The notes under the pieces were generated by a model, which did no database searches, was not told where the DNA came from, and was given only the letters and a program-made list of their open reading frames with translations. This document shows, in pieces, positions 27,058-43,866 of a stretch of DNA of 64,000 bases. Within the stretch, counting starts at the first letter, position 1; every line of letters begins with the position of its first letter. Origin of the DNA: Hyphomicrobiales bacterium (GTDB taxonomy: Bacteria; Pseudomonadota; Alphaproteobacteria; Rhizobiales; Xanthobacteraceae); NCBI GenBank assembly GCA_003169835.1, contig PNAI01000050.1:62001-126000 (forward strand), read 5' to 3'. Both the position numbers and the translations under genes were made by a program.

Positions 27058-27102
27058 GTGGAGGCCACGGCCGGAATTGAACCGGCGTACCCGGTTTTGC
27101 AG
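27058..27102. repeat. left attachment repeat: displaced 3' part of tRNA-Cys
   Basis: gtggaggccacggccggaattgaaccggcgtacccggttttgcag, identical to 43791-43835. Confidence 0.93.
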
Positions 27103-27276
27103 GCGCTCGGCCGGCAATTTTCTAACCCTTTGACACTAACTAATTTTCCCCAAGTCATTCAAAAAGTGCCGGTAAATCAGCGGAAACTCGTTGACGTAAA
27201 CGGTAATTGACGGCAACGTGCGGCAGTCGGTGCCACGTCAAAACACTGACGAAACACTGACTAGAGATTTTTGCCC

Positions 27277-28815
27277 ATGACCGCGAAACACGCCCGCATT
27301 GCCAAGCTGCAAGCGCTAGCGCGCCGGCCCGGGACGAAAGCGGAGGGCCGCGCGGCCAAGGCGGCGATCGCGCGCGTCGCACAAGACGACAAGGGCCAGC
27401 AACCCCTCACGAGCCAAGGCATCAACGACAGCCCGGCGCCGGCAACCCAATCGCGATCCATATGGGACGGCGGGCAGGGGAAGGTCACTGGCTTCGGTAT
27501 CCGCATCTTTGCGCCAACGCGGCGGCACCCGAAGGGCGCGCGAACCTTCTTTCTGAGCTACCGGGTGGACGGCTTCGAGCGGCGGGTGAAGATCGGCGGT
27601 TATCCGCAGTGGTCCGTCGCGGCGGCCCGCGCTGAGGCAAAGGCGCTACGCCAGCGCGTCGACAAGGGCGAGGACCCGGCAGCCGCGAAGGCTGAGCGGC
27701 GCGAGGCCGCGACCGTGGGGGACCTGATCGAGCGTTACATCGCGCAGCACCTACCCACCAAGAAAAACGACGCCGCCGACAAAAAGAGCTTGGGCCGTGC
27801 CCGCGACGAAAAAAGGATGCTGGAAGAAATTGGCGACGCGCTTGGGCGGCGAAAGCGGGTCGCGGAAGTCAATTACAACGACATCGTTGCGATGCACCGG
27901 CATATCACCGAGACGCCATCGACGAGCCATCACTCGAAGAAGCGCCGGCCGGTGCGCGCCAATAGGGTGCTGGCAATAGCGTCGAAGCTGTTTTCGATGG
28001 CGCTGATCCCGGCCGCCGGCGAGGACAAGCCATGGCGCGACGCTGTTCTGGGCAATCCATGCCAGCGGGTGCCGCGCAATCAAGAGGAAGCCCGCGAACG
28101 GTTTTTCAGCGCAGCCGAGCTGGCCGCCATCAGCGATGCACTCGCCAAGTATCCAGCGCAGACGGCGGCGAGCTGTGTGCGGCTGATCACGCTTAGCGGG
28201 TGCAGGCCCGCCGAGGCGATGAAAGCTGGCTGGTCCGAATTTGATGCCGAGCCGGGCCATTGGGTGAAACCGTCCGCGCACACCAAGCAACGCAAATTGC
28301 ACCGGGCGCCGTTGTCTCCGCCTGCGCTTGAACTGATCGACGCGCTACGCGCAAAGCGGAAGAAGGGCGAGGCTTGGGTTTTTCCCGGCCAACGTTCAGG
28401 GCAGCCGATCCAGCAGCTATGGTCCGTGTGGCACTGGGTGCGGGACCACGCCACCCTGAGCATGTGGGCGGCCTCGGCTGATCCGAAGGTCAAAAAGACC
28501 GCCGGCGAGATTTTGAAGCGGCCAACGCCAAGCGTTAAGGCGGCCCGCGCACTTGCTGCAAAGATCGGGGTCGAACTGCCGGGCGGCCTCGACGAATCGC
28601 GGTTGTACGACCTGCGGCACACGTTCGCATCCGTCGGCGCCGGTGGCGGTTTATCCCTGCCGATCATCGGCCGCCTGCTTGGCCATACGCAGTCGCGGAC
28701 GACGCAACGCTACGCACACATCGGCGACGACCCGCTGAAGGAAGCCACAGCCAAGATCGGTGCGATTATCACCGGCGCCGCCAAGCCCGGCGCAGACGTT
28801 GTGCCGACGCGATGA
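27277..28815 (+). CDS. int: tyrosine-type site-specific integrase
   Basis: SLYDLRHTFASVGAGGGLSLPIIGRLLGHTQSRTTQRYAHIGDD catalytic region; N-terminal GFGIRIFAPTRRHPKGARTFFLSYRVDG DUF4102-like arm-binding domain. Confidence 0.95.
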   Translation: MTAKHARIAKLQALARRPGTKAEGRAAKAAIARVAQDDKGQQPLTSQGINDSPAPATQSRSIWDGGQGKVTGFGIRIFAPTRRHPKGARTFFLSYRVDGFERRVKIGGYPQWSVAAARAEAKALRQRVDKGEDPAAAKAERREAATVGDLIERYIAQHLPTKKNDAADKKSLGRARDEKRMLEEIGDALGRRKRVAEVNYNDIVAMHRHITETPSTSHHSKKRRPVRANRVLAIASKLFSMALIPAAGEDKPWRDAVLGNPCQRVPRNQEEARERFFSAAELAAISDALAKYPAQTAASCVRLITLSGCRPAEAMKAGWSEFDAEPGHWVKPSAHTKQRKLHRAPLSPPALELIDALRAKRKKGEAWVFPGQRSGQPIQQLWSVWHWVRDHATLSMWAASADPKVKKTAGEILKRPTPSVKAARALAAKIGVELPGGLDESRLYDLRHTFASVGAGGGLSLPIIGRLLGHTQSRTTQRYAHIGDDPLKEATAKIGAIITGAAKPGADVVPTR

Positions 28816-29621
28816 GTGGGTCCGCTCGTGACGTGCAGGCGGCAATGGCCGCGGGGGACTGGCCGCGCGCAATTAAGATTGCCAGCAGTTTTCCCGAGCT
28901 AGGCATGCACAAGGCTGCGATCCAGAGGGCACACGCCTGCAACCAAAACCCGCGTTTGTATGACCAGTTGCCGACGTACGACCGGGCAACCGTGGAGGCG
29001 GAGGGTATAGCGGCGTTGCGCACACGGTTTGACAAGCCACATACAGCGCGCGAAGCCGCTGCGCGCGTCGAGGAAGTCCTCAGCAAGTTAGAAGTATTGC
29101 CCGAACGGCACTCGGACATCCCCCAGCACGCGTGGAACTTGTCCCTCGTCAGTTTCCTCTGGCGGCACAACGACAGCCCCCAGACGCGGGCGGTAGGGAC
29201 GACAACGACGCAACGTGAACTTAAAAAGTTTGCGGACCTGGCGGCCAAGTTGGGCTGCCACATCAAGTCGATGCACAACGACGCGCGCGATGCATACCAC
29301 GCTGCGTCGGCAGATCGGCCGAACTTAGACGACATGCCAGCCGAGCTTATGTACGTGATTCTCGCGGTCGATAAGGCACTCGGGCAGCTCGGCCCCGAGA
29401 AGCCCGCGCGCAGGCAGCAACCGAAAAAACAACAGGCAGACAACGTGTCGGTGCACGCGGCGCAGGTGTTCACTGCACTGACCGGCAAGCCGGCGACGCG
29501 CATTAACGACACTGTAACGGACAAGGTCGGCGGCCAGTTCTACAACTTCCTTGCCGAGCTGTTTGTCGCGCTTGGGATCGACGCAAGCGCCGCGTCGCAG
29601 GTGAGAGGGCGCGCCATTTAG
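28812..29621 (+). CDS. hypothetical protein, overlapping integrase stop by 4 nt (ATGA)
   Basis: 269 aa ORF, translationally coupled arrangement with int. Confidence 0.75.
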   Translation: MSGSARDVQAAMAAGDWPRAIKIASSFPELGMHKAAIQRAHACNQNPRLYDQLPTYDRATVEAEGIAALRTRFDKPHTAREAAARVEEVLSKLEVLPERHSDIPQHAWNLSLVSFLWRHNDSPQTRAVGTTTTQRELKKFADLAAKLGCHIKSMHNDARDAYHAASADRPNLDDMPAELMYVILAVDKALGQLGPEKPARRQQPKKQQADNVSVHAAQVFTALTGKPATRINDTVTDKVGGQFYNFLAELFVALGIDASAASQVRGRAI

Positions 29622-29722
29622 TCTGAAAAACTTTGGCACTACTTTCCCGTTTTATGGCCCCGCAAAGGCATTAGCCTGCAATCGACGCCAAATGCTTACG
29701 CGTCAAATGCAGGAAAACGGTA

Positions 29723-29941
29723 ATGCCAAATTTAAAAATATTTGATGAGTACGCGACCGAAGCCGAGTTAGCGCAACAGATCGGCCGGTCGATCCGCACA
29801 TTGCGCCTATGGCGTCAAAAGCGGATTGGCCCGCCCTGGACCGAAATGGGCCGGCGGGTCCTCTACCACCATGCTGCGATTCCGCTTTGGCTTAAAAGTC
29901 TGGAACATAATCCCGTCAGAGCGCGGCGACGCGCCGCGTGA
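29723..29941 (+). CDS. AlpA/excisionase-like helix-turn-helix protein
   Basis: YATEAELAQQIGRSIRTLRLWRQKRIGPPWTEMGRRVLYHHAAIPLWLKS. Confidence 0.75.
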   Translation: MPNLKIFDEYATEAELAQQIGRSIRTLRLWRQKRIGPPWTEMGRRVLYHHAAIPLWLKSLEHNPVRARRRAA

Positions 29942-30137
29942 AACGCCCGAAAGCGTTGACGGCCCCGGCTGCTGGTGCAGACCGTGACCGTCAAGCGCAT
30001 AATCCTTTGGCGGGGATTGCGTGTAAACCTACCAAAACCCACCCCAATTTTCAAGTCGCCCGGCTGGTGCGGCGGTTTCGCCTGTCGCCGCCGGTCGCGG
30101 TCGTCGTCGCGGAGCTGGCGTTCGATGTGGTGCAACG

Positions 30138-30551
30138 ATGAACGTGTACGCAATCGCCGCCGACGACATGCTCGAGCGGGCCATTGCGGCCGCCGTGGCT
30201 GCCTTCCCGGATCTCGGTGCGAATGGGTTGAACCATCCGCAGGATTGGCCGATTGAGCGGGCGCATGTCGAATGTGCGATCGGGTTCTTGCGAATGTGCA
30301 TGAAGACCCAGAAGCCGAACTTCTCAAGTTATGCCATCAAACATTTTGCCGAAAAATGGGGCCGCACGGTCGGACTGGCGCCATACGTGACCAATGGCGC
30401 GGCGATTGTTGCTGCCCATGCTCTCGGCTTTGTCGTCGCAAGATACCCGACCGTTACCAAGCGCTATCCGCACGGCGGACCGAACGCTGAAGTTGGCGTT
30501 GCCCGACGCGACATCGTCCGGCTGACGCGGCCGCTCGGTTACGTGTGGTGA
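30138..30551 (+). CDS. hypothetical protein upstream of primase/helicase
   Basis: 137 aa ORF overlapping the next start codon. Confidence 0.6.
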   Translation: MNVYAIAADDMLERAIAAAVAAFPDLGANGLNHPQDWPIERAHVECAIGFLRMCMKTQKPNFSSYAIKHFAEKWGRTVGLAPYVTNGAAIVAAHALGFVVARYPTVTKRYPHGGPNAEVGVARRDIVRLTRPLGYVW

Positions 30552-32506
30552 TGAGCATGAACATCGTCCCGATGAATGCAACCAGCGCGGCCGTCGAGAG
30601 CGACATCAACACTCGCCCGATGCATGTCACGTTCTTCCGCGACGAATACGCGAGCACACTTCGCACCCAAGACATGACGCTGCCCGCGTTGCGCGATCTG
30701 ATCCTCAAGACGACAGCGAGCACAAAAGCGGCGCTGCCTTGGCTCAAGCTCGCAAAGTTCGGCGACAAGCGGACTGAGAAGAACAGCTTACGGAACGACG
30801 CCAACGTGGACAAGATCACGGGCATTGAACTCGATGACGACAGCAAGACGACGCCACTCGATGAAGCTGTTGAAATCATGGAACGCGCAAAGCTGCGCGG
30901 TTTGCTTTACACGTCACCGAGTTCCACCGAAGCGGAGCCCAAGTCGCGCATCTTGCTTCCGACATCGTGCGACTTACCGCCCAATCAGCATGCGAAGCTG
31001 ATAGCTCGCGTCAATGGTTTGTTCGGCGGCATTTTTTCGACCGAGACATTCACGTTGAGCCAAAGCTACTACTTCGGCACCATCAATAATAACCCAGCGC
31101 ATTGCGCAGTAATCACCGACGGCGATTTCATTGATCTGCGTGGCGACCTCGACGCCGGGGCCATCGGCAAGCGAGAGCGGCCGAAGACCAACGGCACACA
31201 GTATCCCGAAGGCAATGGCGAGGGTGAGAGCTGGAGCGTGTTGCTAGGCCACATCCACGCAGGCACCGAGTTGCACACGTCATTACGAGACCTCGCATGG
31301 CGGTGTGGGCTCGCCGGCATGAATGGCGGGGCCACCGTCAATTTTCTCCGCGGCGCACTGGAGAACTCAATCGCGCCGCGCGTGGCGCGTTGGCAAAAGC
31401 GATACAATTCCATTCCTCAACTGGTCGCATCGGCCGAACAGAAAATTCCCACGCTGCCGGGCGGCACGCTGATCCAGTCCAGCGCCGAGTTCGCTAGCGG
31501 CTTCACGCCGCCCGATTACCAGATTGATGGACTCATCCAGCGGCGGTTTTTGTACGCGATGACAGGGCCGACCGGCGCCGGCAAGACGGCCGTGGTCATG
31601 CGCATCGGGGCGCACGTGGCGCTCGGGTTGCCGCTCGACGGGCGCGACGTTGAAAAAGCTCGCGTGTTGTTTTTCGCCGGCGAGAACCCCGACGACATAA
31701 GGATGCGGTGGATCAAGCTGTGCGAGGAAATGGGCCACGATCCGGCCGACATGGATGTTTTCTTTTTGCCCGGCACGCCGCCGATCTCCGATCCCGAGAT
31801 ACGCAAACGGATTGACGCCGAGGTGGCGAAGCACGGGGAGATTGGTTTGCTGATCGTGGATACTTCCGCCGCGTATTTTCGCGGTGACGACGAGAACAGC
31901 AATGCGCTACTCGGCGCGCATGCACGCATGCTGCGCTCATTCGTCAACCTGCCCGGCGGGCCGACCGTCATTGTGACGTGTCACCCGACCAAGAACCCAA
32001 GCATGGACAACTTGCTGCCGCGCGGGGGCGGCGCGTTCATTGCGGAGGTTGATGGAAATCTCGTGTGCATGAAAAACGATGCGGTCGCCACCTTACATTG
32101 GCACGGCAAGTTCCGCGGGCCGGATTTCGCGCCGATCCCGTTCCAGATTGTGCCGGGCACGACGGAAAAATTGAAGGACAGTAAGGGGCAAAAAATCTGG
32201 ACGGTGACGGCTAAGCCAATCACCGAATCCGAAGTGGCGGTGATGGAGAACACCGGCCGCGCGCAACAGGACGCGGTGCTGTTGGTGTTACAAGCCGAAC
32301 CAACGCTGTCCTTGGCGCTGATGGCTGAGAAGCTGCGCTGGTTTTACAAAACCGGCGAGCCGAACAAGTCACGGGTGCACAGCATGCTCAAGGGGCTGAT
32401 CGCTGAAAAACTAATCAAGAAAGTCAGAGGGCTATACGTTTTTACGGAAGCTGGGGAAAAGGCGGCGAAGGCGGCCAAGAAGGCGCAGGACGAGATTCCG
32501 TTTTGA
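30545..32506 (+). CDS. primase-like N-terminus fused to RepA/RecA-fold (AAA_25-like) helicase
   Basis: N-term TGIELDDD and YTSPSSTEAEPKSRILLP (archaeo-eukaryotic primase-like); C-term MTGPTGAGKTAVVMRIGAHVALG Walker A, IGLLIVDTSAAYF Walker B. Confidence 0.83.
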   Translation: MVMSMNIVPMNATSAAVESDINTRPMHVTFFRDEYASTLRTQDMTLPALRDLILKTTASTKAALPWLKLAKFGDKRTEKNSLRNDANVDKITGIELDDDSKTTPLDEAVEIMERAKLRGLLYTSPSSTEAEPKSRILLPTSCDLPPNQHAKLIARVNGLFGGIFSTETFTLSQSYYFGTINNNPAHCAVITDGDFIDLRGDLDAGAIGKRERPKTNGTQYPEGNGEGESWSVLLGHIHAGTELHTSLRDLAWRCGLAGMNGGATVNFLRGALENSIAPRVARWQKRYNSIPQLVASAEQKIPTLPGGTLIQSSAEFASGFTPPDYQIDGLIQRRFLYAMTGPTGAGKTAVVMRIGAHVALGLPLDGRDVEKARVLFFAGENPDDIRMRWIKLCEEMGHDPADMDVFFLPGTPPISDPEIRKRIDAEVAKHGEIGLLIVDTSAAYFRGDDENSNALLGAHARMLRSFVNLPGGPTVIVTCHPTKNPSMDNLLPRGGGAFIAEVDGNLVCMKNDAVATLHWHGKFRGPDFAPIPFQIVPGTTEKLKDSKGQKIWTVTAKPITESEVAVMENTGRAQQDAVLLVLQAEPTLSLALMAEKLRWFYKTGEPNKSRVHSMLKGLIAEKLIKKVRGLYVFTEAGEKAAKAAKKAQDEIPF

Positions 32507-32742
32507 TCGTGGAAGGGCCTTACCACGCCGCGTTTTTGGTAAAAACGGTTGCGGAGGCAAATGCTGCAACCGCGGTGACCGTTTTAGGAAAAACGATGCG
32601 CAAAACGATATTCGAAAAAGCCGCATGGAATAAGGGGAAGTTGCCCGTTTTGCGGAAAACGCGGTGCCGGTACGCAGAATGTTTAATTCTGCGATACCGG
32701 GCGTTTCGTTTTTATACGTTTGCTAGGGCGCACGAAAAAACG
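32437..32742. other. candidate replication origin: CGTTTT/AAAACG palindromes plus long inverted repeat
   Basis: CGTTTTTggtAAAAACG 32531-32547; CGTTTTaggAAAAACG 32580-32595; CGTTTTgcggAAAACG 32646-32661; CCGGTACGCAGAATgtttaATTCTGCGaTACCGG 32667-32700; CGTTTTT 32707 and AAAAAACG 32735-32742. Confidence 0.45.
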
Positions 32743-32949
32743 ATTGAGCCCTACCGCACGCCAACCCGGCCCGAGGCCGCCGCGCCTACCGCAGAAAAAG
32801 TTTGCGCCGGTTGCCGGGCTGGCCAGCGGTTTAGCAAACAGGGTACGCTGAGCCGTAAAAGGCCTATAATGCTAGACTATTATTGCGTTTGCGGGTATAC
32901 GTCAGTTGTTCGTCAGTGCGCACTAGAGGCAAAACATGCAGGCAGATAG
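32503..32949 (+). CDS. doubtful ORF overlapping the palindrome cluster
   Basis: 148 aa open frame; contains CAGC and CVCG but composition dominated by the palindromes. Confidence 0.3.
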   Translation: MIVEGPYHAAFLVKTVAEANAATAVTVLGKTMRKTIFEKAAWNKGKLPVLRKTRCRYAECLILRYRAFRFYTFARAHEKTIEPYRTPTRPEAAAPTAEKVCAGCRAGQRFSKQGTLSRKRPIMLDYYCVCGYTSVVRQCALEAKHAGR

Positions 32950-33373
32950 CCCCGCGATAGCGGCCCACAAGCCGGCCGCTCGCTCAAAGATCACGAACGG
33001 TAGCGCGATCTTGGACGGTGCCGACATGCGCGGCCGCACTGCCCGCCGGTTCCGCGACGTGCTAGGCGAAATCGTATCTGACCTTGGAGGCGACCCCGCA
33101 CAATTGAGCGAGGGGCAACGTCAACTTGCGCGGCGCTGCGCAATGCTCGCGGTCGAGTGCGAGAAGATCGAAGCGCACGGCGTTGCGGGCGAGGCCATCG
33201 ACTTGGACAGCTACGGTCAGTTGACCGACCGCATCGGCCGCGCGTTCCAGCGGCTGGGGCTTAAGCGCCAAGCCCGCGACGTGACGCCGCGCCTTTCCGA
33301 ATATTTGGCTTCGATAGCGCGCCCGCCACAAGCCGCGCCAACGGCCAACGAAGCCGAGGACGTGCCGGCATGA
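32936..33373 (+). CDS. phage terminase small subunit-like protein
   Basis: DGADMRGRTARRFRDVLGEIVSDLGG...SEGQRQLARRCAMLAVECEKIEA; 4-nt overlap with the terminase-like gene. Confidence 0.6.
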   Translation: MQADSPAIAAHKPAARSKITNGSAILDGADMRGRTARRFRDVLGEIVSDLGGDPAQLSEGQRQLARRCAMLAVECEKIEAHGVAGEAIDLDSYGQLTDRIGRAFQRLGLKRQARDVTPRLSEYLASIARPPQAAPTANEAEDVPA

Positions 33374-34899
33374 CGCAGGCCACCACCATTGATCAGGCGC
33401 TAACGGACGCGAAGCTGCTCGGCGCCGCGCTTGGCGACGTTGCGACGTGGCAGACGTGGTGCGCAGTGCTGATTGCTGCCTTCGGCGGCCAACTCAACCG
33501 CGAACAGCGGAGTGCCTTCGCGGCCGTATCCGGTGGACGCAAGCCGCCTGATGCAATGGTCCGCGAATTGATCGCCATTGCCGGGCGGCGTTCGGGCAAG
33601 TCGAGGATGGCGGCACTGATCGCGGCTTTCATTGCCACATGCATTGACCACAGCGCCAAGCTTGCGGCCGGCGAGACTGGTTACGTGCTTGTCCTCGCAG
33701 CCAGCCGTGCGCAGGCGCAAGTCGTGTTTGCTTATGTACGCGGTTTCCTTTTGGCGTCGCCTATTTTGTCGCGTGAAATTGAATCCGAGTCGTCCGAGGA
33801 GATCAGGCTGCGCAACGGCGTTTGCATTGCCGTTCATGCCAACAACTTCCGCACGGTACGCGGCCGGACCTTGCTGGCGTGCATCTTCGATGAGTGCAGT
33901 TTTTGGCGCGACGAAACGTCTGCCAATCCCGATGTTGAAACCTATCGCGCTGTGCTGCCGGCGATGGCATCCACAAGCGGATTGCTGATTGCCATAAGTT
34001 CGCCGTACCGCAAGGGCGGGCTGATCTTTACTAAATTCCGCGACGCCTTCGGCCAGGACAATCCTGACGTGCTAGTCGTCAAGGGTGCCACGGTTCAATT
34101 CAATTCAACCATCGACGCGAGTGTGATCGCCCGCGCCCGCGAAAGCGATCCGGCCGCCGCTATGTCTGAGTGGGACGCGGAGTTTCGCAACGACATTTCG
34201 CAGCTTCTCGACGACGCATCAATCGACGTAGCCATTGACCGCTCACGGCCGCTGGAACTTCCGCCGCGTGATTTCAAGTACGAGGTTTTCGTCGATGCCA
34301 GCGCCGGTCGGCACGATGCTTTCACCATCGGCATCGCCCATCGTGAGGGCGAGCGCATCGTCGCCGATGTGATCCGTGGCAGGCGGGCGCCCTTCGACCC
34401 CGCGACTGTGGCCGCGGAATACGCGGAACTTGTCAAGCAATATCACTGCAACTTTGTCACCGGCGATAACTACGCCGGCGAGTGGGTTGCTCAAAGTTTT
34501 CGCGATTGTGGTTGCGAGTATATGCGCAGCGAGCTTGTGAAATCGCAGCTCTATCTCGAAGGCTTGCCCCACTTTATGCGGGGCGCAATTTCAATTCCAG
34601 ATATGCCCTTATTGCTCCGCGAACTACGGCTGCTTGAGCGGCGCGTGCAACGGAGCGGTAAAGATTCCGTCGACCACGGCCTCAGCGGCTCGGATGATTT
34701 CGCGAACGCGTTGTTCGGCAGCATGTGGTTGTGCCGCGACATCGCACAAGACCCGATGAATTTGTCACCACCGGAGTGGTCGTCCCAACCGCGATATGTG
34801 CCCGGTGGAATAACCGAAATCTTCAACGGTGCGAACGCAGATTTAAATCCGGCTTGTGTGAGTGCAATGTTCGCACCGCGTTCGCGTTGGACAAACTAA
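33370..34899 (+). CDS. phage terminase large subunit-like protein
   Basis: IAGRRSGKSRMAAL (Walker A), LLACIFDECSFW (Walker B), ISSPYRKGGLIFTKF, EVFVDASAGRHDAFTIGIAH (RNase H-like nuclease). Confidence 0.88.
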   Translation: MTQATTIDQALTDAKLLGAALGDVATWQTWCAVLIAAFGGQLNREQRSAFAAVSGGRKPPDAMVRELIAIAGRRSGKSRMAALIAAFIATCIDHSAKLAAGETGYVLVLAASRAQAQVVFAYVRGFLLASPILSREIESESSEEIRLRNGVCIAVHANNFRTVRGRTLLACIFDECSFWRDETSANPDVETYRAVLPAMASTSGLLIAISSPYRKGGLIFTKFRDAFGQDNPDVLVVKGATVQFNSTIDASVIARARESDPAAAMSEWDAEFRNDISQLLDDASIDVAIDRSRPLELPPRDFKYEVFVDASAGRHDAFTIGIAHREGERIVADVIRGRRAPFDPATVAAEYAELVKQYHCNFVTGDNYAGEWVAQSFRDCGCEYMRSELVKSQLYLEGLPHFMRGAISIPDMPLLLRELRLLERRVQRSGKDSVDHGLSGSDDFANALFGSMWLCRDIAQDPMNLSPPEWSSQPRYVPGGITEIFNGANADLNPACVSAMFAPRSRWTN

Positions 34900-34919
34900 T
34901 CAACCGAGGAGAAAAAACC

Positions 34920-35522
34920 ATGACTGACAAAATTGACGACGCCAAACGCACCGCACAAGAAGTTGAGCAACAGCTTGCGGCCGCCGCTGCAAAGCTGGCC
35001 GACGTTATCCGTAACCGCGCCGAAATTGCATTCGATGCAATCGTCGCACACGACGAAGCGGCGACAAAAAAGCTGGCCGACATTAATGAAGTCGAGGTCG
35101 CATTGCGCCGTGAACAGGTTTTGCTGGCCGCTTGCCTCGACACGGCACGCCAAAAGGTAACCAACGCAGAGCGCGAAACAGTCGCAGCAGCTGAGGCTGA
35201 ACGTGCGGCACAGCGCCAAACCCGATTTTCTGCGCTCCGCGAGCGAGCGGTCGCACTCGACCGCATCGCGACCGATCTGACTGCGGCGTTTACCGATTTT
35301 CAGAAAGAGGCGGCTGCAATTGGTCGACTTGCGACCGGCTCCTCAGCACCAAGCGTCGAACTTGTAAGTGTCGGAACCCGACGTGCACTTGCGGCACATC
35401 TTCGAGCGACCGGGTTGCCGCTGCAAGCGATACCGCCCAGTCAGCGTCTGTCCTTTGCATCACTCGCGCAGAGCTGGAGCGGCACGACCTCCGCAGACGA
35501 AAATACGGCAACTGCAGCATAA
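34920..35522 (+). CDS. coiled-coil-rich hypothetical protein downstream of terminase
   Basis: MTDKIDDAKRTAQEVEQQLAAAAAKLADVIRNRAEIAFDAIVAHDEAATKKLADINEVE... Confidence 0.7.
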   Translation: MTDKIDDAKRTAQEVEQQLAAAAAKLADVIRNRAEIAFDAIVAHDEAATKKLADINEVEVALRREQVLLAACLDTARQKVTNAERETVAAAEAERAAQRQTRFSALRERAVALDRIATDLTAAFTDFQKEAAAIGRLATGSSAPSVELVSVGTRRALAAHLRATGLPLQAIPPSQRLSFASLAQSWSGTTSADENTATAA

Positions 35523-35535
35523 GAAGGGATCAACA

Positions 35536-35898
35536 ATGACCACGACAAAAGCAGAAGTGCTTAAACTTATCGAATCCAGTGCAGAGAAAATTCAACAACA
35601 CGGAGAGACGCGCGAGCAGGCGTATGTGAGATTCATTACGAAAACCGATGAAGGCCGCGCGCTGCACTCAGTTTACAAACGCGCACCCGGACCCGATCAC
35701 AGCCCGCCGGAAGCGCCAATCCAAAAGTGTGCCGCGCCGACGCCGGCCATGGCCAAGTTGTTGCAGAAGGCCGAGGCGATCAAAAAGGCCGAGGCGAACA
35801 TCACGATGGAGCAGGCGTTCGCCAAAACTTATCTCGATCCGAATAACCGTGATCTGGTTGAGCTGGAGAAACGCCAGCGGTTGACTGCGGCCGCTTAA
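35536..35898 (+). CDS. hypothetical phage-like protein
   Basis: MTTTKAEVLKLIESSAEKIQQHGETREQAYVRFITKTDEGRALHSVYKRAPGPDHSPP...; follows preceding ORF. Confidence 0.7.
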   Translation: MTTTKAEVLKLIESSAEKIQQHGETREQAYVRFITKTDEGRALHSVYKRAPGPDHSPPEAPIQKCAAPTPAMAKLLQKAEAIKKAEANITMEQAFAKTYLDPNNRDLVELEKRQRLTAAA

Positions 35899-35906
35899 CT
35901 TGTACA

Positions 35907-36017
35907 CCGCGCGGCTTCTCCCCGCGCGGTCCGACACGGCGGTGCCCCGTCGTGTCAAGGCGGGGCTTCATTCACCCCCGCGCAGGGTGCCCGCCGGTGT
36001 CGGCATTGCCGGCGGGC
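35907..36017 (+). other. cluster of three strong hairpins after the terminase gene run
   Basis: CCGCGCGG..CCGCGCGG 35907-35929; GACACGGCGG-tgcc-CCGTCGTGTC 35933-35956; GCCCGCCGG..CCGGCGGGC 35989-36017. Confidence 0.6.
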
Positions 36018-36251
36018 GCTTGCGTTCCGGCGATAGCGTAGCGTGCGCGTCTGGTGCCGGGGCGACATGTCCGGTCCTCGCCCAACAACGGACATTTGAG
36101 CGCGCTGCACAATCTGTCGAAAAGTGCCATTAGCCGACAATCTCGTCGATTCTGGCGAGCAGCGCGGATGGTACGATCCGACCGAGCACTTTGGCCGTCT
36201 CGGCGCCCGGACCGCTTGTGCGACGTGGGGCCGACCACCCCGGCAATAGAG

Positions 36252-36965
36252 CTAGAGAGGGGCGACCAGCTCGGCGAGCTTGGCCGCGACGTCTGCCATC
36301 GACTCTTCTGCAGTGCTCAGGCCGGTTCGAGAGGCCAGCAGGGGGCTGACTTCACGGAGAGCTTCATACGTCGTTTCGTGCACGACGGGGACGAGCCGCT
36401 CACGCGCGAGGAGTGCCGAAAGTTCTTTGTCGGCGATGCCCTCTGCTGGCAGACGGCGCAGCAGCGCAGGGGTCACCAACACGATCCCGACTCGCGAGTT
36501 CGCCAAGCCCTTGTCGATGGCGCGGAGCAACGGCACGCCGAGGCCAACATCCTTTTCGCTGAACCAGACCGAGACACCACGTGACTCAAGCAGATTGTGC
36601 AGCTCCTTGGCGGCCCCCTGCCGGTCGTCCCACGCGTGGCAGAGGAAGACGTCCCGAAGGTCAGGCAGCTTCGCTAGGTTCTCGACGCTATTGCGGACCG
36701 GTGTGAGTGCCCGCACTTCTTCAGGCGTGTACCACACGGACGAACCGGCTCGCGACCAGCGCGGCTTTGCGCTGCGGCCGGATCCGCCGCCGCTGCTCCG
36801 GCCGCCCCCGCTGCTCCCCGACGAGGAGTGGGACGGGGAGTACGACGGAGAGTACGAGGGGTACGAGTACGACCTGTAGCCGCCGTAGCGGCCGCCGCAT
36901 GCAGGGCAGTTCGCTCGACCGCTCGCTGTGCGATGGCCATATACTGGTGCTGTGCATCTAGCCAT
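36252..36965 (-). CDS. TIR-domain protein with N-terminal Cys motif and Ser/Gly/Tyr-rich linker
   Basis: MARCTAPVYGHRTASGRANCPACGG...DVFLCHAWDDRQGAAKELHNLLESRGVSVWFSEKDVGLGVPLLRAIDKGLANSRVGIVLVTPALL. Confidence 0.88.
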   Translation of the reverse strand: MARCTAPVYGHRTASGRANCPACGGRYGGYRSYSYPSYSPSYSPSHSSSGSSGGGRSSGGGSGRSAKPRWSRAGSSVWYTPEEVRALTPVRNSVENLAKLPDLRDVFLCHAWDDRQGAAKELHNLLESRGVSVWFSEKDVGLGVPLLRAIDKGLANSRVGIVLVTPALLRRLPAEGIADKELSALLARERLVPVVHETTYEALREVSPLLASRTGLSTAEESMADVAAKLAELVAPL

Positions 36966-37619
36966 GTGGCCGACGATACCGGGTACCATCGCCGCTCTCA
37001 AGCTCTAGTTGCAATGGGCCAATGTCGCCTACGGGTCATTCTCGACGGATTCGCGATGTCCGAGTTGAGTCCGCTTTACCCCCGAAAGCGGACATTACTT
37101 TGTTCCTTAGCGCCAACAACTGACATGACGCTGACGGCGCACTCGGAAATATAGAGGCCGCCAACTAAGGTGGCCTACTTGCCGGTGTTGAGGTCGCTAG
37201 CAATTTGCAGGTTAGCGATCCGCTGTTGGCGAGCTACCTTTGCTTCTCGATTAGCCACCGACGATCTGTGCCGCGTTTGTAGCGTGTGAGGGCGCGGCAA
37301 TACCGCGACCCCGAATTCGTGACTGCACAGAGAAGAAACGATGGCGCAGGCAAACAGCTTAGAGAGCCTCAGTGTTTTGTTTCTCGGAACTTGATTGTCG
37401 AGCGAATGGGTGCCGCTCTTGTAATGAAAAATCCGGCGAAGGTAAGTCCAACGATTGATGCAAATCCGATGAGCATAATCAGCGTAGCGAGGTCCATGGC
37501 ACACTCTAAAAGTACGCAGCCGCATAGAAACTATGCCGGGCTGTCAATCGAGTGTCGAGTCGAAATCAGCATTTTTACGAATTTGGAATCGAGAAGCTGA
37601 AAACGTTAATGATCGGACA

Positions 37620-38039
37620 CTACCGGCGCCGCCTGACAGGTTCTTCTTTTTGGCACGCGGGGTCGAGACCCATCTGTACTTGAACGTCCGTCTGGTATTC
37701 GTTCATCGCGCCGCTCGCCGCGTCTACGCCCAGACCAATTACTCCTCCGACAAGAATATTGCCGGCTGTCATTGGCTGAATATTCGATGCAATAACTCCC
37801 GCACCGTCCAAATAGCATTCCTTCGTACAGCGAACGGCGACGGCTTCTTTACTCTTTTCGAGCGACACAGACGCAGGCGTGATTACCACTCGAGTGCCGA
37901 TCGACGACGATGTCAGCGTACAAGTCGCCCCTGCCACGCCAGGTGTGTTCACGCCAATGGTTTGATTTTGACCTTTAGTGAGTGTGGCGCAGGCCGCGAG
38001 CAAAAGCAGGCAGCCGAACGCGATTACAGTCTTACACAT
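37620..38039 (-). CDS. small lipoprotein
   Basis: MCKTVIAFGCLLLLAACATLTKGQNQTIGVNTPGVAGATCTLTSS; lipobox LLAAC. Confidence 0.78.
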   Translation of the reverse strand: MCKTVIAFGCLLLLAACATLTKGQNQTIGVNTPGVAGATCTLTSSSIGTRVVITPASVSLEKSKEAVAVRCTKECYLDGAGVIASNIQPMTAGNILVGGVIGLGVDAASGAMNEYQTDVQVQMGLDPACQKEEPVRRRR

Positions 38040-38168
38040 TATCCTATCCCCCTCATCCGCCAGCACAATCCTAGCGGGAATTCTAATGGAACGCGAGACA
38101 TTGAAATAAGCCACTGCTGAGTGTGGCAGTGGCGTAAAAGTGAACCCCGGTGAGGCGGATTCAAACAG

Positions 38169-39167
38169 CTATCGGATAGGAATATCTGACACAAAAACGC
38201 GCTCGCCCGCGTTTGATACTCCGGCTTCATTAAGTGCTGCTACGAACGCGGTGTACATCGCCCACGGATAAGGCGATGGGCCGATAATCAAACGGTCGAA
38301 AATTACGGATGCATCGAGCTCGCTGAGCGCGGGTGAGATCTTTGCGTCAAGCGGAAGCTCATAAATAATTTGGGGGACGCCACCATAAGTCACGGTGGTC
38401 GGTTTCATAAGCGGTGATTTGGACCTGTTGGGCGAATATATCGCTCGCCACTCTCTTTCTTCGCGGAAACCGTGATGTTTCAAACAGATGACGCCGGCCA
38501 CGAACATAACAAACACGACGTTCGTCACGAACTGACGATCGATGGCTTTCAAATACTCTGAGTTCTCGAGAATATTGCGCACCACGGTTTCTAGCTCAGA
38601 ATGCACCTCAGGCTCGGTCATGTAGGCGACGGGACTGAACATGATGTTAAGGGCAAGACTGGCTGCCGAAAATTGAGGGACGCGCAATACAATCCCCACG
38701 CGACCGACGCTTCCACCAAATGCCCGCCACATGGACAATCGACCAATTTTATCTTCGTCGTCTTCATGCCTGGAAATTGATGTGACGTACGTATTCAGAT
38801 GGACGTCCTGTAGCCATCCATTGAAGAGGGTGAGCGCCTCTTGAGCACACCCCGGTGAGCAGCCGTCCAGGGCGTCGAAAAAGGTTTGTTTCTTGGTTTG
38901 ATCTTTGAAAAAGCTGTTGAGGATATCGAATCCGTGTTGCACCTCTCGATAGTCAGACATGCAAGTCGCGTTGCGCATCCAGATGCGCTTGGTGTTGATA
39001 ATCTTCAATGCCGCTTCGGCTGATGTGTAGTGTACAAATCGCTTGGGGTTTAACGCGTCCTTATAGATTTCCATGCGCTCGCGCCTTGCATTGGGCATGA
39101 AGATCGCCTCCAGGCGTGTCGCCATTTCGATTTGTTCCGGAGTGAGTCCGGGCGGAGTCGGGTTCAT
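38169..39167 (-). CDS. DUF2971-like protein
   Basis: FVHYTSAEAALKIINTKRIWMRNATCMSDYREVQHG...FREEREWRAIYSP. Confidence 0.78.
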   Translation of the reverse strand: MNPTPPGLTPEQIEMATRLEAIFMPNARRERMEIYKDALNPKRFVHYTSAEAALKIINTKRIWMRNATCMSDYREVQHGFDILNSFFKDQTKKQTFFDALDGCSPGCAQEALTLFNGWLQDVHLNTYVTSISRHEDDEDKIGRLSMWRAFGGSVGRVGIVLRVPQFSAASLALNIMFSPVAYMTEPEVHSELETVVRNILENSEYLKAIDRQFVTNVVFVMFVAGVICLKHHGFREEREWRAIYSPNRSKSPLMKPTTVTYGGVPQIIYELPLDAKISPALSELDASVIFDRLIIGPSPYPWAMYTAFVAALNEAGVSNAGERVFVSDIPIR

Positions 39168-39496
39168 GGTGTAGTTCTTTCGGATGTCGACTATGACCGC
39201 AACATTCTGTCGATGTCGCACGGTAAAAAATATGGAATGTGCTGCTTGCTACAAGCTGAGCGCGCGAAAACATTTCGCTTGACCGCGTCATCACGACCGA
39301 GACGATGATTCTTCCTTTAGATTCAACGGCCGCGAGGTAGTTTTAGAACTGATCGGTTCCGCCTATATAGGTCCGCATGCGCGGCCGCTTCACACGAATG
39401 TACACATTGCGCGAACTCTACGAGCTCTACCGGGCAGTACCTAACTGAGACTGCATAGAGAAGAAGATCGCACCGACAAAATTGGAGAACGACATC

Positions 39497-40639
39497 ATGT
39501 TTAAACGCGCACCGGCGCATGAATTGGGCAAACGCTCTTTGTCGGACGTTGTCGTGGGCAATTGGTACTACGGTTTTAAGTGTGGCCATTGCAAAACTCT
39601 AGTCCCCGTCTTTGACGATAGGAGCGGCGGCACGCAAAAGATAAGCGTATTCGGCGGCGCGCTGGAAGCAGTTTGCCCGTTCTGCAAAGGGGCTCAGGTG
39701 TATTTGCCACAGCAGCTCGAGCAATTTCAATTCGCAGGCCCACGGAATCGGACGCAGACCTCAGATCCGAAGCTGCGGAGCGAGGTGACGGACAGCAGTG
39801 AGGATGGCACGACGGCAAGAAAGCAACCTTTCAAACAGGGTCGCCGGTACTGCATTTTCTGCGAGCGAGAGCCTCCCAAAATCAAGATGTCAGGAGAACA
39901 TCAGTTCGGCGATTGGCTAGAAGAGTTATTTCCGCGAGATGATACAACGCGCCACACACTTATCGTTGCCGATCATCCAAACGGATCAGTGAATGATCGG
40001 CCGACGGTGACGCGATTTGACCGCCAAGGTCATTCGGGCTCTATAAAACTTTCTGTCGTCTGCACACAGTGCAACAACGAATGGATGAGCACCAAGGTTG
40101 AAGAACCGGCAAAACCGATTCTCAAGCCTTTAATATTAGGAGTAACATGCGGATTGGACGGGGATATGCAGAGCATCGTAGCCACCTGGGCTGCCAAAAC
40201 GGTAATGGTGTCCGAACAGAGTCGAGAAACGCGGTCGGTCATTTTTCAGTCGGAGCGTACGTGGCTCAAAGAACATCTGACGCCGCCGATGGGCTGGTCG
40301 ATTTGGATTGGGTCGTATGGCGGAACGGAGTGGCGCGATCTGACATGCTTTATGCACCCGGCAACTATGGATGTGCCGGCGATTGGCGATCAACGGCCAG
40401 CGAAACACAATTTTGAATTTACGATTCTCGGTCTGGGCAAATTGGCGATTGTCATCATCAATACGTCGGCGCCTCACCTACATGGAAAGTTTTCGATACC
40501 GCGCCTTCGGCAAATTTGGCCAATCGTCGATGATCGCGTGACTTGGCCAACGGATTATATTGCAACCGATGCTGACCTTTGGCAGCTCACGAGTTACCCC
40601 ATCGACTTCATGCGTAAGACCCAAGATCCATCGCCTTGA
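39497..40639 (+). CDS. HNH-like / zinc-finger hypothetical protein
   Basis: YCIFCEREPPKIKMSGEHQFGDWLEELFP...SVVCTQCNNEWMSTKVEEPAKPIL paired-Cys arrangement. Confidence 0.65.
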   Translation: MFKRAPAHELGKRSLSDVVVGNWYYGFKCGHCKTLVPVFDDRSGGTQKISVFGGALEAVCPFCKGAQVYLPQQLEQFQFAGPRNRTQTSDPKLRSEVTDSSEDGTTARKQPFKQGRRYCIFCEREPPKIKMSGEHQFGDWLEELFPRDDTTRHTLIVADHPNGSVNDRPTVTRFDRQGHSGSIKLSVVCTQCNNEWMSTKVEEPAKPILKPLILGVTCGLDGDMQSIVATWAAKTVMVSEQSRETRSVIFQSERTWLKEHLTPPMGWSIWIGSYGGTEWRDLTCFMHPATMDVPAIGDQRPAKHNFEFTILGLGKLAIVIINTSAPHLHGKFSIPRLRQIWPIVDDRVTWPTDYIATDADLWQLTSYPIDFMRKTQDPSP

Positions 40640-40707
40640 CTGTCCCGATTCAAATAGTGCGACATAACATTTCGACTTACCAAATGTAGCGATTGGTCGC
40701 AGTGCCC

Positions 40708-40734
40708 CGAATCGCATTCGAATTGCCGGATGCG
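40708..40734. repeat. 27-bp intergenic repeat copy 1
   Basis: cgaatcgcattcgaattgccggatgcg; one mismatch to 41157-41183. Confidence 0.75.
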
Positions 40735-41156
40735 GCACTTTTAATCCTCCCGATCCGGTTGGGATTTGCGACACACGTGTCGCATTTGCGAAACAAGTTT
40801 CACTTTTGCCGTGCGTCTCAGCGATATGTTGTGCCGGGACTGAGCGTTACCGTCGAACCTTGGGTGGCGGAAAGTGACCAGGCGAGGTTCGGCACGGGCG
40901 AGTGTGCCGGAAGATCGGGCATTGGCGGCAAGCCGATGACGCACACGCCCTGATACCGTGGCCCAGTTATGCAGCCATCAAGACCATTGTGAAGTGCCTC
41001 CACACAGCCGACGGCAACGAACGCGCCACAAGTCAGACATTGGGTTGTTCTGTTCATTTTATTTGGCCTCTTATCTTCGAAACGCTCGAACTATACACCA
41101 TCTCGCCGCTTTCCGCGATTCCGCTACGCAAGATGTGGTGGGATGGCCTCATTCCA

Positions 41157-41183
41157 CGAATCGCGTTCGAATTGCCGGATGCG
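41157..41183. repeat. 27-bp intergenic repeat copy 2
   Basis: cgaatcgcgttcgaattgccggatgcg. Confidence 0.75.
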
Positions 41184-41221
41184 CTACGGTTCCCAAATCC
41201 TCGCCGAGTGCGAGCAGGCTG

Positions 41222-41512
41222 ATGATCCGGTTCGTCTGCGACAAGTGCGGACGCAAGGGGCAGTACCGGAAGGTAACGCTTGTCGACAAATATGGGCCTG
41301 ACGTTGCGATGCCCGACCTGCTGCACAAGATTGCCGACTGCCCGCACTGGCAGCCGATGCGCGGCGGATGCTCGGTGAGGTACGACCTTACGCAGGCAGA
41401 GCTTGATAAGGCGATGCATCGTTGGAATGCTGCAACACCACAGGGCTGTCGACCGGCAAGTGGGATTCCATTCGTTTCCACGAGACCACGAGTTGTTATA
41501 GACTTAGGGTAG
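41222..41512 (+). CDS. small zinc-ribbon-like protein
   Basis: MIRFVCDKCGRKGQYRKVTLVDKYGPDVAMPDLLHKIADCPHWQPMRGGC. Confidence 0.6.
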   Translation: MIRFVCDKCGRKGQYRKVTLVDKYGPDVAMPDLLHKIADCPHWQPMRGGCSVRYDLTQAELDKAMHRWNAATPQGCRPASGIPFVSTRPRVVIDLG

Positions 41513-41607
41513 AATTGTGCACCCTGAGCCACTAGGCGTATTTGGAACTACCCGGTAGTTCGTGCAAGCAAAGTCTGGTTCAACGTTGTCGAGAGCACGA
41601 GGTCAGA

Positions 41608-41856
41608 ATGATAGATGTAAAGCAAGCTGTGAACGCAGCAATTGCATACGTAAATGATTTTCCAAGCCTCTTATCGACTGCGAATGTTCGCCTTGAAGAG
41701 ACCGAACTGAGTGATACTGAAACATATTGGAATATCACTCTCAGCTTTATCGAGAACGCGTTGATGGGGACTCGAACATATCGAATATTCAAAATTGATG
41801 CCGAGACTGGGGTCGTGAAGTCAATGAAAGCTCGCAACATATTTAAGCAGGCCTAG
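41608..41856 (+). CDS. small hypothetical protein paired with PIN-domain gene
   Basis: MIDVKQAVNAAIAYVNDFPSLLSTANVRLEETELSDTETYWNITLSFIENALMGTRTYRIFKIDAETGVVKSMKARNIFKQA; 3-nt gap to next ORF. Confidence 0.75.
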   Translation: MIDVKQAVNAAIAYVNDFPSLLSTANVRLEETELSDTETYWNITLSFIENALMGTRTYRIFKIDAETGVVKSMKARNIFKQA

Positions 41857-41859
41857 CGC

Positions 41860-42348
41860 GTGTATCCGCACGATTTATTGGAAAAATATAAGGACAAAGG
41901 TGTTCTAATAGACACTAACTTGCTTCTGCTGATTGCGGTTGGCACCTATAACACTGCTAGGATTCTATCGTTCAAAAGAACGCAGCGATATACGTTAGAA
42001 GACTTTTTACTAATGCGAAGAATCCTGGAGCATTTTCAGCGCCGCGTTACGACCCCGAACATTCTCACAGAGGTCGATAACATCGCGCGACAATTGCCGG
42101 AGGACGAGCACGAGTCGATAGCGGCAGTTTTGACCCAACTCATATCAAATTCTTTTGAAGTGTACGTAGAGTCTCGAACTGCGGTACAGACACATTTGTA
42201 TCCTGCGATTGGTTTGACAGATTGCGTAACGATGAGTTCGGCAGAGGAGGTGTTAGTTCTGACTGACGATTTTGAACTATCAAATAGATTGGCTAGCGTG
42301 GGTCGCGATGCACTCAACATAAATCACATTAGGCATTTTGATCTGTGA
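41860..42348 (+). CDS. PIN-domain-like protein
   Basis: GVLIDTNLLLLIAVG, TPNILTEVDNIA, GLTDCVTM, VLTDDFELSNRL spaced acidic residues. Confidence 0.7.
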   Translation: MYPHDLLEKYKDKGVLIDTNLLLLIAVGTYNTARILSFKRTQRYTLEDFLLMRRILEHFQRRVTTPNILTEVDNIARQLPEDEHESIAAVLTQLISNSFEVYVESRTAVQTHLYPAIGLTDCVTMSSAEEVLVLTDDFELSNRLASVGRDALNINHIRHFDL

Positions 42349-42487
42349 GCAGTTCTGCAATGGCGAGGCCGGCACGTGGCAACCATGAGATTAGGCCGCT
42401 GACTTGACGGTCTCCACATTGCCGCAACTCTTGACGAGGCGAAGGAGGAACTGGCGCCGCGAAGGAAAAGTGCCGGGGGAATAGTCA

Positions 42488-42958
42488 ATGGGTCAAAACC
42501 ACAGAACTGTTGATGCATTGGCGGTCGAGCTACGACAGGTTACGACAGGCATAGGGAACCAGCGCCGACTGCCAGACGCTTTCCGCAAGTTGTTCGGTGG
42601 TGCGCATGAAGACGCGGGCGTAATAGCTCGTCCAGGAACCCCGAGGTTCAAGCTTGCACGAGGAGTTTCGTACCTCTCAGCATTGCGAAGTTGGAGAAGG
42701 AAGCGAAAACGGGCGGCGGAAGCTCGTATCAGGCGCAAGGCGCAAAAAATAGAAAAACTCCTGCGAAAAATACCGAAGTACAAGAACAAGGAATTTATCT
42801 GCATCACTGATTACGACAGGTGTCTCAACCATCGCGGACCAAATTCGACGATCTGCGCGATGGCGTTCATCATCTGCATGGGTCGGCGAGCCATTCCGCT
42901 TCTTAAGCAACTTGGAAAAGCCGCTAAAACGGCTGCATCTGGAGAGGCACTTTCGTAA
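42488..42958 (+). CDS. hypothetical protein
   Basis: 156 aa ORF, basic C-terminal half; no recognised motif. Confidence 0.35.
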   Translation: MGQNHRTVDALAVELRQVTTGIGNQRRLPDAFRKLFGGAHEDAGVIARPGTPRFKLARGVSYLSALRSWRRKRKRAAEARIRRKAQKIEKLLRKIPKYKNKEFICITDYDRCLNHRGPNSTICAMAFIICMGRRAIPLLKQLGKAAKTAASGEALS

Positions 42959-43089
42959 GCTAAGGAAGGCCAACATGATGGCCCGCCGTTTTCAGCGCCG
43001 CGCTCTTCGGACCTCAGTTATGCCGCCGCTCCCGCCCTCGGCGTGGTCGCCGGTGCCGCGGCATCACGGCTGACGGGCGCGCTTTTTAT

Positions 43090-43713
43090 TTAGACGATGA
43101 GACTTGCAACCTTCCGCCATTCTGACGGGATGGCGTTCCATCTCTTAGGCCAGCGCGCTCTCACAAGCGGCGAAGGGTGGGCGGAAGTGAACAAGGTCAA
43201 CCCGGAAGCTACAAGGTGTGATCTAGCCTCGGCTGCTTTCTGCCCGACCAGCACGACCACGCGTAGCCTAGGAAGCAAATGGATCAATTCGTTCGCGTGG
43301 CTCGCACCGTCCAGCAATTCCGATCCCGTCACCGTGCGTGTGCCGTTCCACCCCGGGATAACATTCCACAGGATGGTCAGCTCGCGCGGCAACCCGGCTT
43401 GACGCATGAAATTGAAAGTGGCCTCGGCGGTCGGATCGTCATTGTTGCGGCTGATAAAACCTGAGCCCGATCGCTTGCCGCTGCCTTCCTCGGTCGTCAT
43501 CGGGCCGGGCTTCTCGAACAGGAACAGCGCCCGCGCCTCCACACCGCCGTCGAGCGGGTCAAAATCAGGAACTTGCAAGCCTGGCCGACGCAGCTTTTCG
43601 GCGAAGGTCTTCAATTGGACCATGTGCGGAAGGCCGAGCATGGCGCGCCGCCGTTGGCGCACACCCGCGTCGCGCATCGAACGCGGCCAGTCGTCGGCTT
43701 GGGGCAACGTCAT
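43090..43713 (-). CDS. uracil-DNA glycosylase-like protein
   Basis: MTLPQADDWPRSMRDAGVRQRRRAMLGLPHMVQL...RALFLFEKPGP...ILWNVIPGWNG...RVVVLVGQKAAEA...TSAHPSPL; start moved in because the longer ORF reads through tRNA-Cys. Confidence 0.75.
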   Translation of the reverse strand: MTLPQADDWPRSMRDAGVRQRRRAMLGLPHMVQLKTFAEKLRRPGLQVPDFDPLDGGVEARALFLFEKPGPMTTEEGSGKRSGSGFISRNNDDPTAEATFNFMRQAGLPRELTILWNVIPGWNGTRTVTGSELLDGASHANELIHLLPRLRVVVLVGQKAAEARSHLVASGLTLFTSAHPSPLVRARWPKRWNAIPSEWRKVASLIV

Positions 43714-43790
43714 TGGGCGGTTGAAGTGTACTGACGAAACGCTGACTAGATTTTTTTGTCTTTTGCGGTAGCTGCTAAGTCCTTGATATT

Positions 43791-43835
43791 GTGGAGGCCA
43801 CGGCCGGAATTGAACCGGCGTACCCGGTTTTGCAG
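43791..43835. repeat. right attachment repeat, inside intact tRNA-Cys
   Basis: Perfect 45-bp match to 27058-27102. Confidence 0.93.
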
Positions 43836-43866
43836 ACCGGTGCGTAACCACTCCGCCACGTGGCCT
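43792..43866 (-). tRNA. tRNA-Cys (GCA)
   Basis: Reverse complement AGGCCACGTGGCGGAGTGGTTACGCACCGGTCTGCAAAACCGGGTACGCCGGTTCAATTCCGGCCGTGGCCTCCA. Confidence 0.93.

Follow-up and report, generated by a model that had tools for sequence, protein, structure and literature searches.

Several kinds of phage satellite have been described that bear comparison with the locus reported here. Phage-inducible chromosomal islands (PICIs) carry integrase, replication and master regulator genes in a conserved order, have no structural or lytic genes and measure about 12-15 kb; their attachment (att) site is never occupied by a prophage, and they are induced and packaged by a helper phage (PMC6092414). Capsid-forming PICIs (cfPICIs) are defined (definition quoted in PMC10690885) by a complete head module comprising major capsid protein (MCP), protease, portal and connectors. 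The Pseudomonas satellite AH14b (16,812 bp) is reported to be packaged in the heads of its helper AH14a, and its authors report no terminase gene (PMC4936722). A 2024 review names P4, PICI, cfPICI, PLE, PICMI, VEIME and tycheposons (PMC11389934). Here we describe an element integrated in a tRNA-Cys gene of a Hyphomicrobiales bacterium (Xanthobacteraceae), within a stretch of 64,000 nucleotides that was analysed as a whole (the window; assembly GCA_003169835.1, contig PNAI01000050.1, positions 62,001 to 126,000). The element is very probably a phage satellite in integrated form, which would use small and large terminase subunits of its own (TerS and TerL) to package itself into helper proheads.

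The element measures 16,778 bp (outer ends 27058-43835; repeat spacing 16,733 bp), and the original prediction of about 16.8 kb bounded by perfect att repeats at tRNA-Cys is confirmed, with attL and attR identical at 45/45 bases and attR forming the 3' end of the tRNA gene. On the right, the repeat takes in the last 44 nt (3' end) of the tRNA-Cys(gca) gene, which lies on the minus strand and is whole; attL holds only its 3' fragment. As judged from the sequence, an intact tRNA-Cys together with a 3' fragment at the left is the pattern that insertion into the 3' end of a tRNA gene would leave. The left half is a run of genes in one direction (+), and in the right half (about 36.2-43.8 kb) the gene orientation is mixed and the G+C content is 50-53% in most 1-kb bins, vs. 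about 56-66% in the left. The predicted order of integrase, helix-turn-helix (HTH), primase/helicase-like, TerS-like and TerL-like genes, followed by a mixed right half, likewise stands (by Pfam and PHROGs, and for TerS by position and conservation). The borders and the genes of the left half are as follows:

27058..27102, no strand: attL, 45-bp direct repeat, a 3' partial copy of tRNA-Cys
27271..28815, +: tyrosine integrase (Arm-DNA-bind_3 3e-15, Phage_integrase 7e-14; phrog_1 8e-47)
28812..29621, +: 269-aa protein with no assigned function, directly 3' of int (weak phrog_18237)
29723..29941, +: AlpA/excisionase-like HTH protein, 72 aa (phrog_66, excisionase and transcriptional regulator, 5e-7; Pfam below cut-off)
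30138..30551, +: 137-aa protein with no assigned function (Pfam/PHROGs)
30545..32506, +: replication protein with a primase-like N-terminus and an AAA_25 RepA/DnaB-like helicase (AAA_25 1e-22; PHROGs)
32503..32949, +: small protein with no assigned function (Pfam/PHROGs)
32936..33373, +: TerS-like protein, 145 aa (position, size and conservation beside TerL; 4-bp overlap with terL)
33370..34899, +: TerL, terminase large subunit (phrog_2 3e-31; Walker A GRRSGKS, DE and nuclease-domain Asp intact)
34920..35522, +: 200-aa coiled-coil protein directly 3' of TerL, a putative modifier of the capsid or of packaging
35533..35898, +: 121-aa partner of the coiled-coil protein, conserved with a sister element
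43791..43835, no strand: attR, 45-bp repeat inside tRNA-Cys
43792..43865, -: tRNA-Cys(gca), intact (tRNA call)

The terminase pair is conserved beyond this locus. The Walker A motif (GRRxGK), the DE pair and the nuclease-domain Asp residues 309, 366, 442 and 443 (window numbering) are invariant in 21 TerLs of the family, and homologues of the TerS-like protein lie 5' of TerL in about 75 of 101 TerL-bearing loci, frequently with the same 4-bp overlap; the AlphaFold model of the TerS-like protein is helical and confident (pLDDT 83.6). Portal, capsid, protease, tail and lysis genes had no convincing match in the left operon and the annotated right-half open reading frames (ORFs) (Pfam, PHROGs), and nothing structural was found when selected element proteins were compared with PADLOC and NCBIfam, which bears out the earlier claim that no ORF reads as one of these. 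The ORFs at 34920-35898 and the right half, singled out beforehand as places where a structural gene would speak against a satellite, were inspected for such genes and showed no convincing homology: the former gave a single match, to phrog_992 ("head protein", E=0.009), which is put down to coiled-coil similarity.

Relatives of the element form a conserved family. TerL searches recovered them in 24 of the 300 host-family genomes sampled (about 8%) and in 2 of 385 other sampled genomes of the class, and a TerL profile scan of GTDB genomes gave at least 280 loci, in Alphaproteobacteria, Gammaproteobacteria, Nitrospira, Acidobacteria, Binatia and other groups, many of them on contigs of metagenome-assembled genomes, for which individual host assignments may be wrong. 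The family was seen only with the genome searches and the profile scan: scanning genome contigs with a single TerL sequence returned nothing, and a DNA search of plasmids gave no match. Bounding att repeats were recognised for 37 elements (spacing 7.9-18.3 kb, median 11.8 kb), mostly overlapping tRNA genes (Lys, His, Asn, Cys, Phe, Ser, Leu, Thr, Met, Arg, Glu, Pro, and Ala). All 37 encode an integrase of one homology cluster, and 36 encode TerL by clustering; in the remaining element, L089, terL was missed by the gene caller and recovered by direct TerL search. Quantised sizes (one-third or one-quarter of a helper) are unsupported, as the lengths of the 37 elements spread continuously, although the two in the host genome nearly coincide (16.73 and 16.80 kb). 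The original prediction proposed to look for syntenic relatives at tRNA-Cys; relatives at tRNA genes exist, with similar size and the same core. Its placement of the lineage in Rhizobiales is too narrow for a family found in several phyla. One further locus, L144, is the 25.8-kb Komagataeibacter nataicola plasmid pKNA06, which seemingly consists of two near-identical units of about 13 kb and encodes TerL, DUF2213, ParA, a VapE-type protein and a recombinase; it may represent the family in plasmid form, as a dimer.

When the window TerL and two distant family TerLs were compared with 50,697 deposited phage records, a handful of matches was obtained, all at or below 32% identity. In a tree of 100 TerL sequences, 96 chromosomal sequences are split from 4 phage TerLs by a branch with SH-aLRT 99; this is supporting evidence only, the tree being a quick one with long phage branches and a chromosomal set picked by similarity. 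By these sequence comparisons, TerL is a lineage of its own, essentially absent from deposited phages and broad in small integrated elements. Two genomes (G019 and G222) each hold two elements at different tRNAs, with TerLs 94-95% identical within each genome and integrases of only 33% (G019) or, over a short stretch, 29% identity (G222). Near-identical TerLs beside divergent integrases indicate that the packaging module is exchanged among active elements, which argues against decay. Virus Rctr16k (L010; KX853514), a 16.7-kb partial record from a methane-oxidising enrichment, has integrase, replication and terminase genes; it is not counted as a family member on account of its distant TerL (26-32% identity) and a predicted tail protein, and is possibly a satellite.

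The host genome itself holds a second satellite (L036, on contig C47, G000:C47:2935-19756), bounded by a 27-bp att repeat in a terminator-like site, with a spacing of 16,795 bp vs. 16,733 bp for the window element. The two have part of the replication protein in common; their coiled-coil proteins are 64% identical, with 77% DNA identity over the coiled-coil/partner stretch, and their TerLs and integrases are 40% and 24% identical, respectively.

One alternative, very unlikely, is decay: of a complete temperate phage once integrated at tRNA-Cys, the integrase, replication and terminase genes would have survived by chance, those for head, tail and lysis having been lost. Such decay accords with TerL being a phage protein and with the few family members in which one or two structural genes persist (portal, MCP, protease, and tape measure), and the right half, with its lower G+C, mixed orientation and genes of no assigned function, could have replaced a late region. 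A similar size and the same core, however, recur in 37 bounded elements from several phyla and, at near-equal length and with the same architecture, in the sister element of the same genome; the catalytic residues of TerL are kept, and close relatives of this TerL are essentially lacking among deposited phages. Because similar-sized relatives share this core, the element is not a prophage with recent deletions. The two options that the original prediction had left side by side have parted: a satellite-type element is supported by the missing structural genes and by the relatives at tRNAs, and a heavily reduced prophage is weakened, as the TerL lineage resides in small integrated elements and hardly in deposited phages.

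The genes directly 3' of TerL bear on a second alternative, likewise very unlikely, by which the element would be a cfPICI-like satellite with head genes too divergent to see, 34920-35898 encoding a diverged scaffold or capsid. A diverged capsid was considered here and rejected on size and fold: in the AlphaFold model the 200-aa protein forms long coiled-coil helices (2-43 and 46-138), with its conserved C-terminal part at lower confidence, and with its 121-aa partner it is too small and of the wrong kind for a portal or MCP. cfPICIs bear TerS and TerL (PMC10690885), and some relatives have an HK97 MCP, protease or portal 3' of TerL; however, Pfam, PHROGs and NCBIfam gave no convincing match, and the smallest relatives (7.9-9 kb; L058, L099, L077) could accommodate no more than a coiled-coil protein and short ORFs.

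In a self-packaging satellite, the coiled-coil protein is a candidate for modifying size or packaging, as Sid of P4 or the scaffolds of SaPIs would suggest by analogy. Many other relatives encode a protein of 200-290 aa, helical by eye, at or near the position after TerL. Most bounded relatives have no recognised head or tail gene, and a minority have one or two beside TerL: protease and MCP in G009, portal in G062, MCP and tape measure in L066 and L103, and tape measure alone in L078 and L110; the number of such relatives is a lower bound, as the scans list the 25 commonest families. L104 shares a homology cluster with the capsid proteins of G009 and L066. L058 ends in a 91-aa piece that resembles a tape-measure N-terminus by eye. 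The carriers of tape-measure genes, two of them with a capsid protein of their own, can be read as satellites that swap only size-determining virion proteins. SaPIbov5 Ccm is a precedent for a capsid-protein homologue that works as a size switch (PMC8569155).

A repeated motif marks both ends of the element and the start of terS:

27245..27261, +: left end motif, ACTGAC-N5-ACTGAC, inside a 29-bp repeat (27245-27273)
43730..43746, +: right end motif, 1 mismatch, oriented as the left copy
32901..32917, -: third copy, exact and inverted, ending 18 bp 5' of the terS start codon

A fourth copy (37119-37135, 1 mismatch) lies within the cargo region. In 33 of the 37 elements, by the cut-off used, a tandem 7-mer particular to the element (two copies, spaced 10-13 bp) is present near each end, in every case scoring above 30 shuffled versions of that element; a search requiring exact units at both ends missed the window element, which a mismatch-tolerant search found. 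Across 32 elements scored, there are 18 internal motif pairs with at most 1 mismatch, 17 of them inverted relative to the end copies. A pre-set interval around terS or terL contains 16 of the 18, and the remaining two (G062, L090) likewise lie 5' of terL, where the terS call is over-extended or missing; because a 580-bp interval is about 5% of element length, the placement of internal copies near terS/terL is far from chance. Such a third copy thus occurs in roughly half of the elements. The end copies, as paired direct repeats about one helical turn apart, are probably arm-type sites of the integrase. Covariation of the end motif with Int, TerS or TerL gave no clear signal (rho <=0.09), and candidate binders of the third copy are the integrase, the AlpA-like protein and TerS. 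In P4, Vis does both jobs, excision and regulation.

From these features, we infer excision, replication, helper dependence, a role for the coiled-coil protein and regulation as follows. On helper infection or induction, Int and the AlpA-like protein would excise a 16.73-kb circle, which the AAA_25/primase protein would replicate to a concatemer. The element's own TerS/TerL would recognise satellite DNA, dock on helper portals and fill helper-made proheads, and the packaged satellite would exit with helper tails and lysis; the coiled-coil protein may alter the size or shape of the helper particle, or adjust the packaging complex. A single DNA-binding protein of the satellite, probably Int or the AlpA-like protein, would bind the motif at both ends and at the terS start, tying excision to control of the terminase genes. 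Extended to the relatives as a whole, the proposal is of an undescribed, multi-phylum family that brings its own TerS/TerL lineage to foreign proheads together with no more than one or two swapped-in genes for morphogenesis (coiled-coil factor, MCP, protease, portal, or tape measure), one satellite protein acting on a coevolving site at the ends and the terS start; towards this composite picture we lean only slightly.

Several observations count against self-packaging into helper proheads. The AlphaFold model of the TerS-like protein matched no solved TerS in the PDB, so that the label "TerS" stays positional. One scan of environmental viral contigs gave no match. Clear sequence homologues of the coiled-coil protein, whose role is putative, occur only in the sister element. 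In the host assembly, which is 82.6% complete, neither Phage_portal nor Phage_capsid was found, and the two satellite copies are its only TerLs; therefore no resident helper is visible, and a helper might come from outside or be encoded in the part that the assembly lacks.

The right half encodes the following:

36252..37001, -: TIR-domain protein (PADLOC ThsB-like model, near full length, 3e-127)
37620..38114, -: lipoprotein-like (phrog_6823)
38169..39221, -: DUF2971 protein (phrog_1762)
39482..40639, +: accessory protein, zinc-finger/HNH-like by eye (phrog_38451)
41860..42348, +: PIN-like by eye only (no Pfam match above cut-off)
43090..43713, -: uracil-DNA-glycosylase-superfamily protein (UDG 1e-5)

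A 30-bp direct repeat (93% identical) occurs at 40705-40734 and 41154-41183. ThsA was not found among the scanned element proteins, and the TIR protein appears to be a stand-alone defence or cargo gene. With the other right-half genes it would constitute cargo, probably in part anti-phage. The TIR (ThsB-like) protein and the frequency of defence genes on phage satellites would also suit a TerS/TerL that does not serve self-packaging, for instance as a dominant interferer that blocks or misdirects helper packaging, in a defence island moved by generalised transduction or natural uptake, but this is highly improbable, given that the integrase/att/replication core and the exchange of the TerL module between integrases fit a self-mobilising element and that the TerL active-site residues are conserved.

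As a self-packaging satellite, the element resembles PICIs in having integrase, AlpA-like (a putative regulator) and replication genes in order at an att site and in being without detected virion genes, yet it has a terminase pair, of which some PICIs bear TerS; its size is 16.7 kb (family 7.9-18.3 kb) vs. about 12-15 kb. It differs in its own intact TerL and its tRNA site, whereas classical PICIs use the helper TerL. With cfPICIs it shares TerS and TerL on the element, integrase, AlpA-like and replication genes; unlike them, it has no head module that could be found, and head or tail genes, one or two at a time, occur in only a few relatives. A functional temperate phage requires head, tail and lysis genes, none of which was found in the element. 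P4-like satellites share an Arm-DNA-bind_3 integrase, an AlpA/Vis-like protein and a primase/helicase, and Sid of P4, an alpha-helical size-determining protein, is an analogue of the coiled-coil protein; however, P4 is packaged by the P2 terminase through cos and lacks terS/terL, whereas this element has TerS-like/TerL. Homologues of sid, psu, delta and P4 alpha were not found in the element by Pfam/PHROGs, the replication protein being of the AAA_25 type and not P4 alpha. The original prediction that PICIs and P4-like satellites share size, integrase/AlpA/primase modules and cargo with the element holds for the modules, but the listing hides TerL, which is absent from textbook PICI and P4.

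AH14b is of near-equal size and has integrase, AlpA-like and primase genes and no structural genes, but this element has a terminase. Mulch and Flayer also bring TerS and TerL on the satellite, but encode portal, MCP, scaffold and adaptor, lack key replication genes and have Streptomyces hosts (PMC10690885). VEIMEs and tycheposons (named in PMC11389934) are likewise satellites integrated in environmental bacteria. The literature searched contains no terminase-only satellite family; VEIME and tycheposon terminase content was not compared, so that a prior description is possible. The presence of the family in about 8% of host-family genomes (24/300) and in several phyla could explain many unassigned genomic islands there, and the motif common to the ends and the terS start offers a concrete and testable way in which excision and the control of packaging may be linked. 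Known satellites either depend on the large terminase of a helper (P4, PICI) or supply an entire head of their own (cfPICI); a motor-only family, if confirmed, would put the packaging step, not capsid supply, at the centre of the hijack, with a satellite motor that must fit foreign portals.

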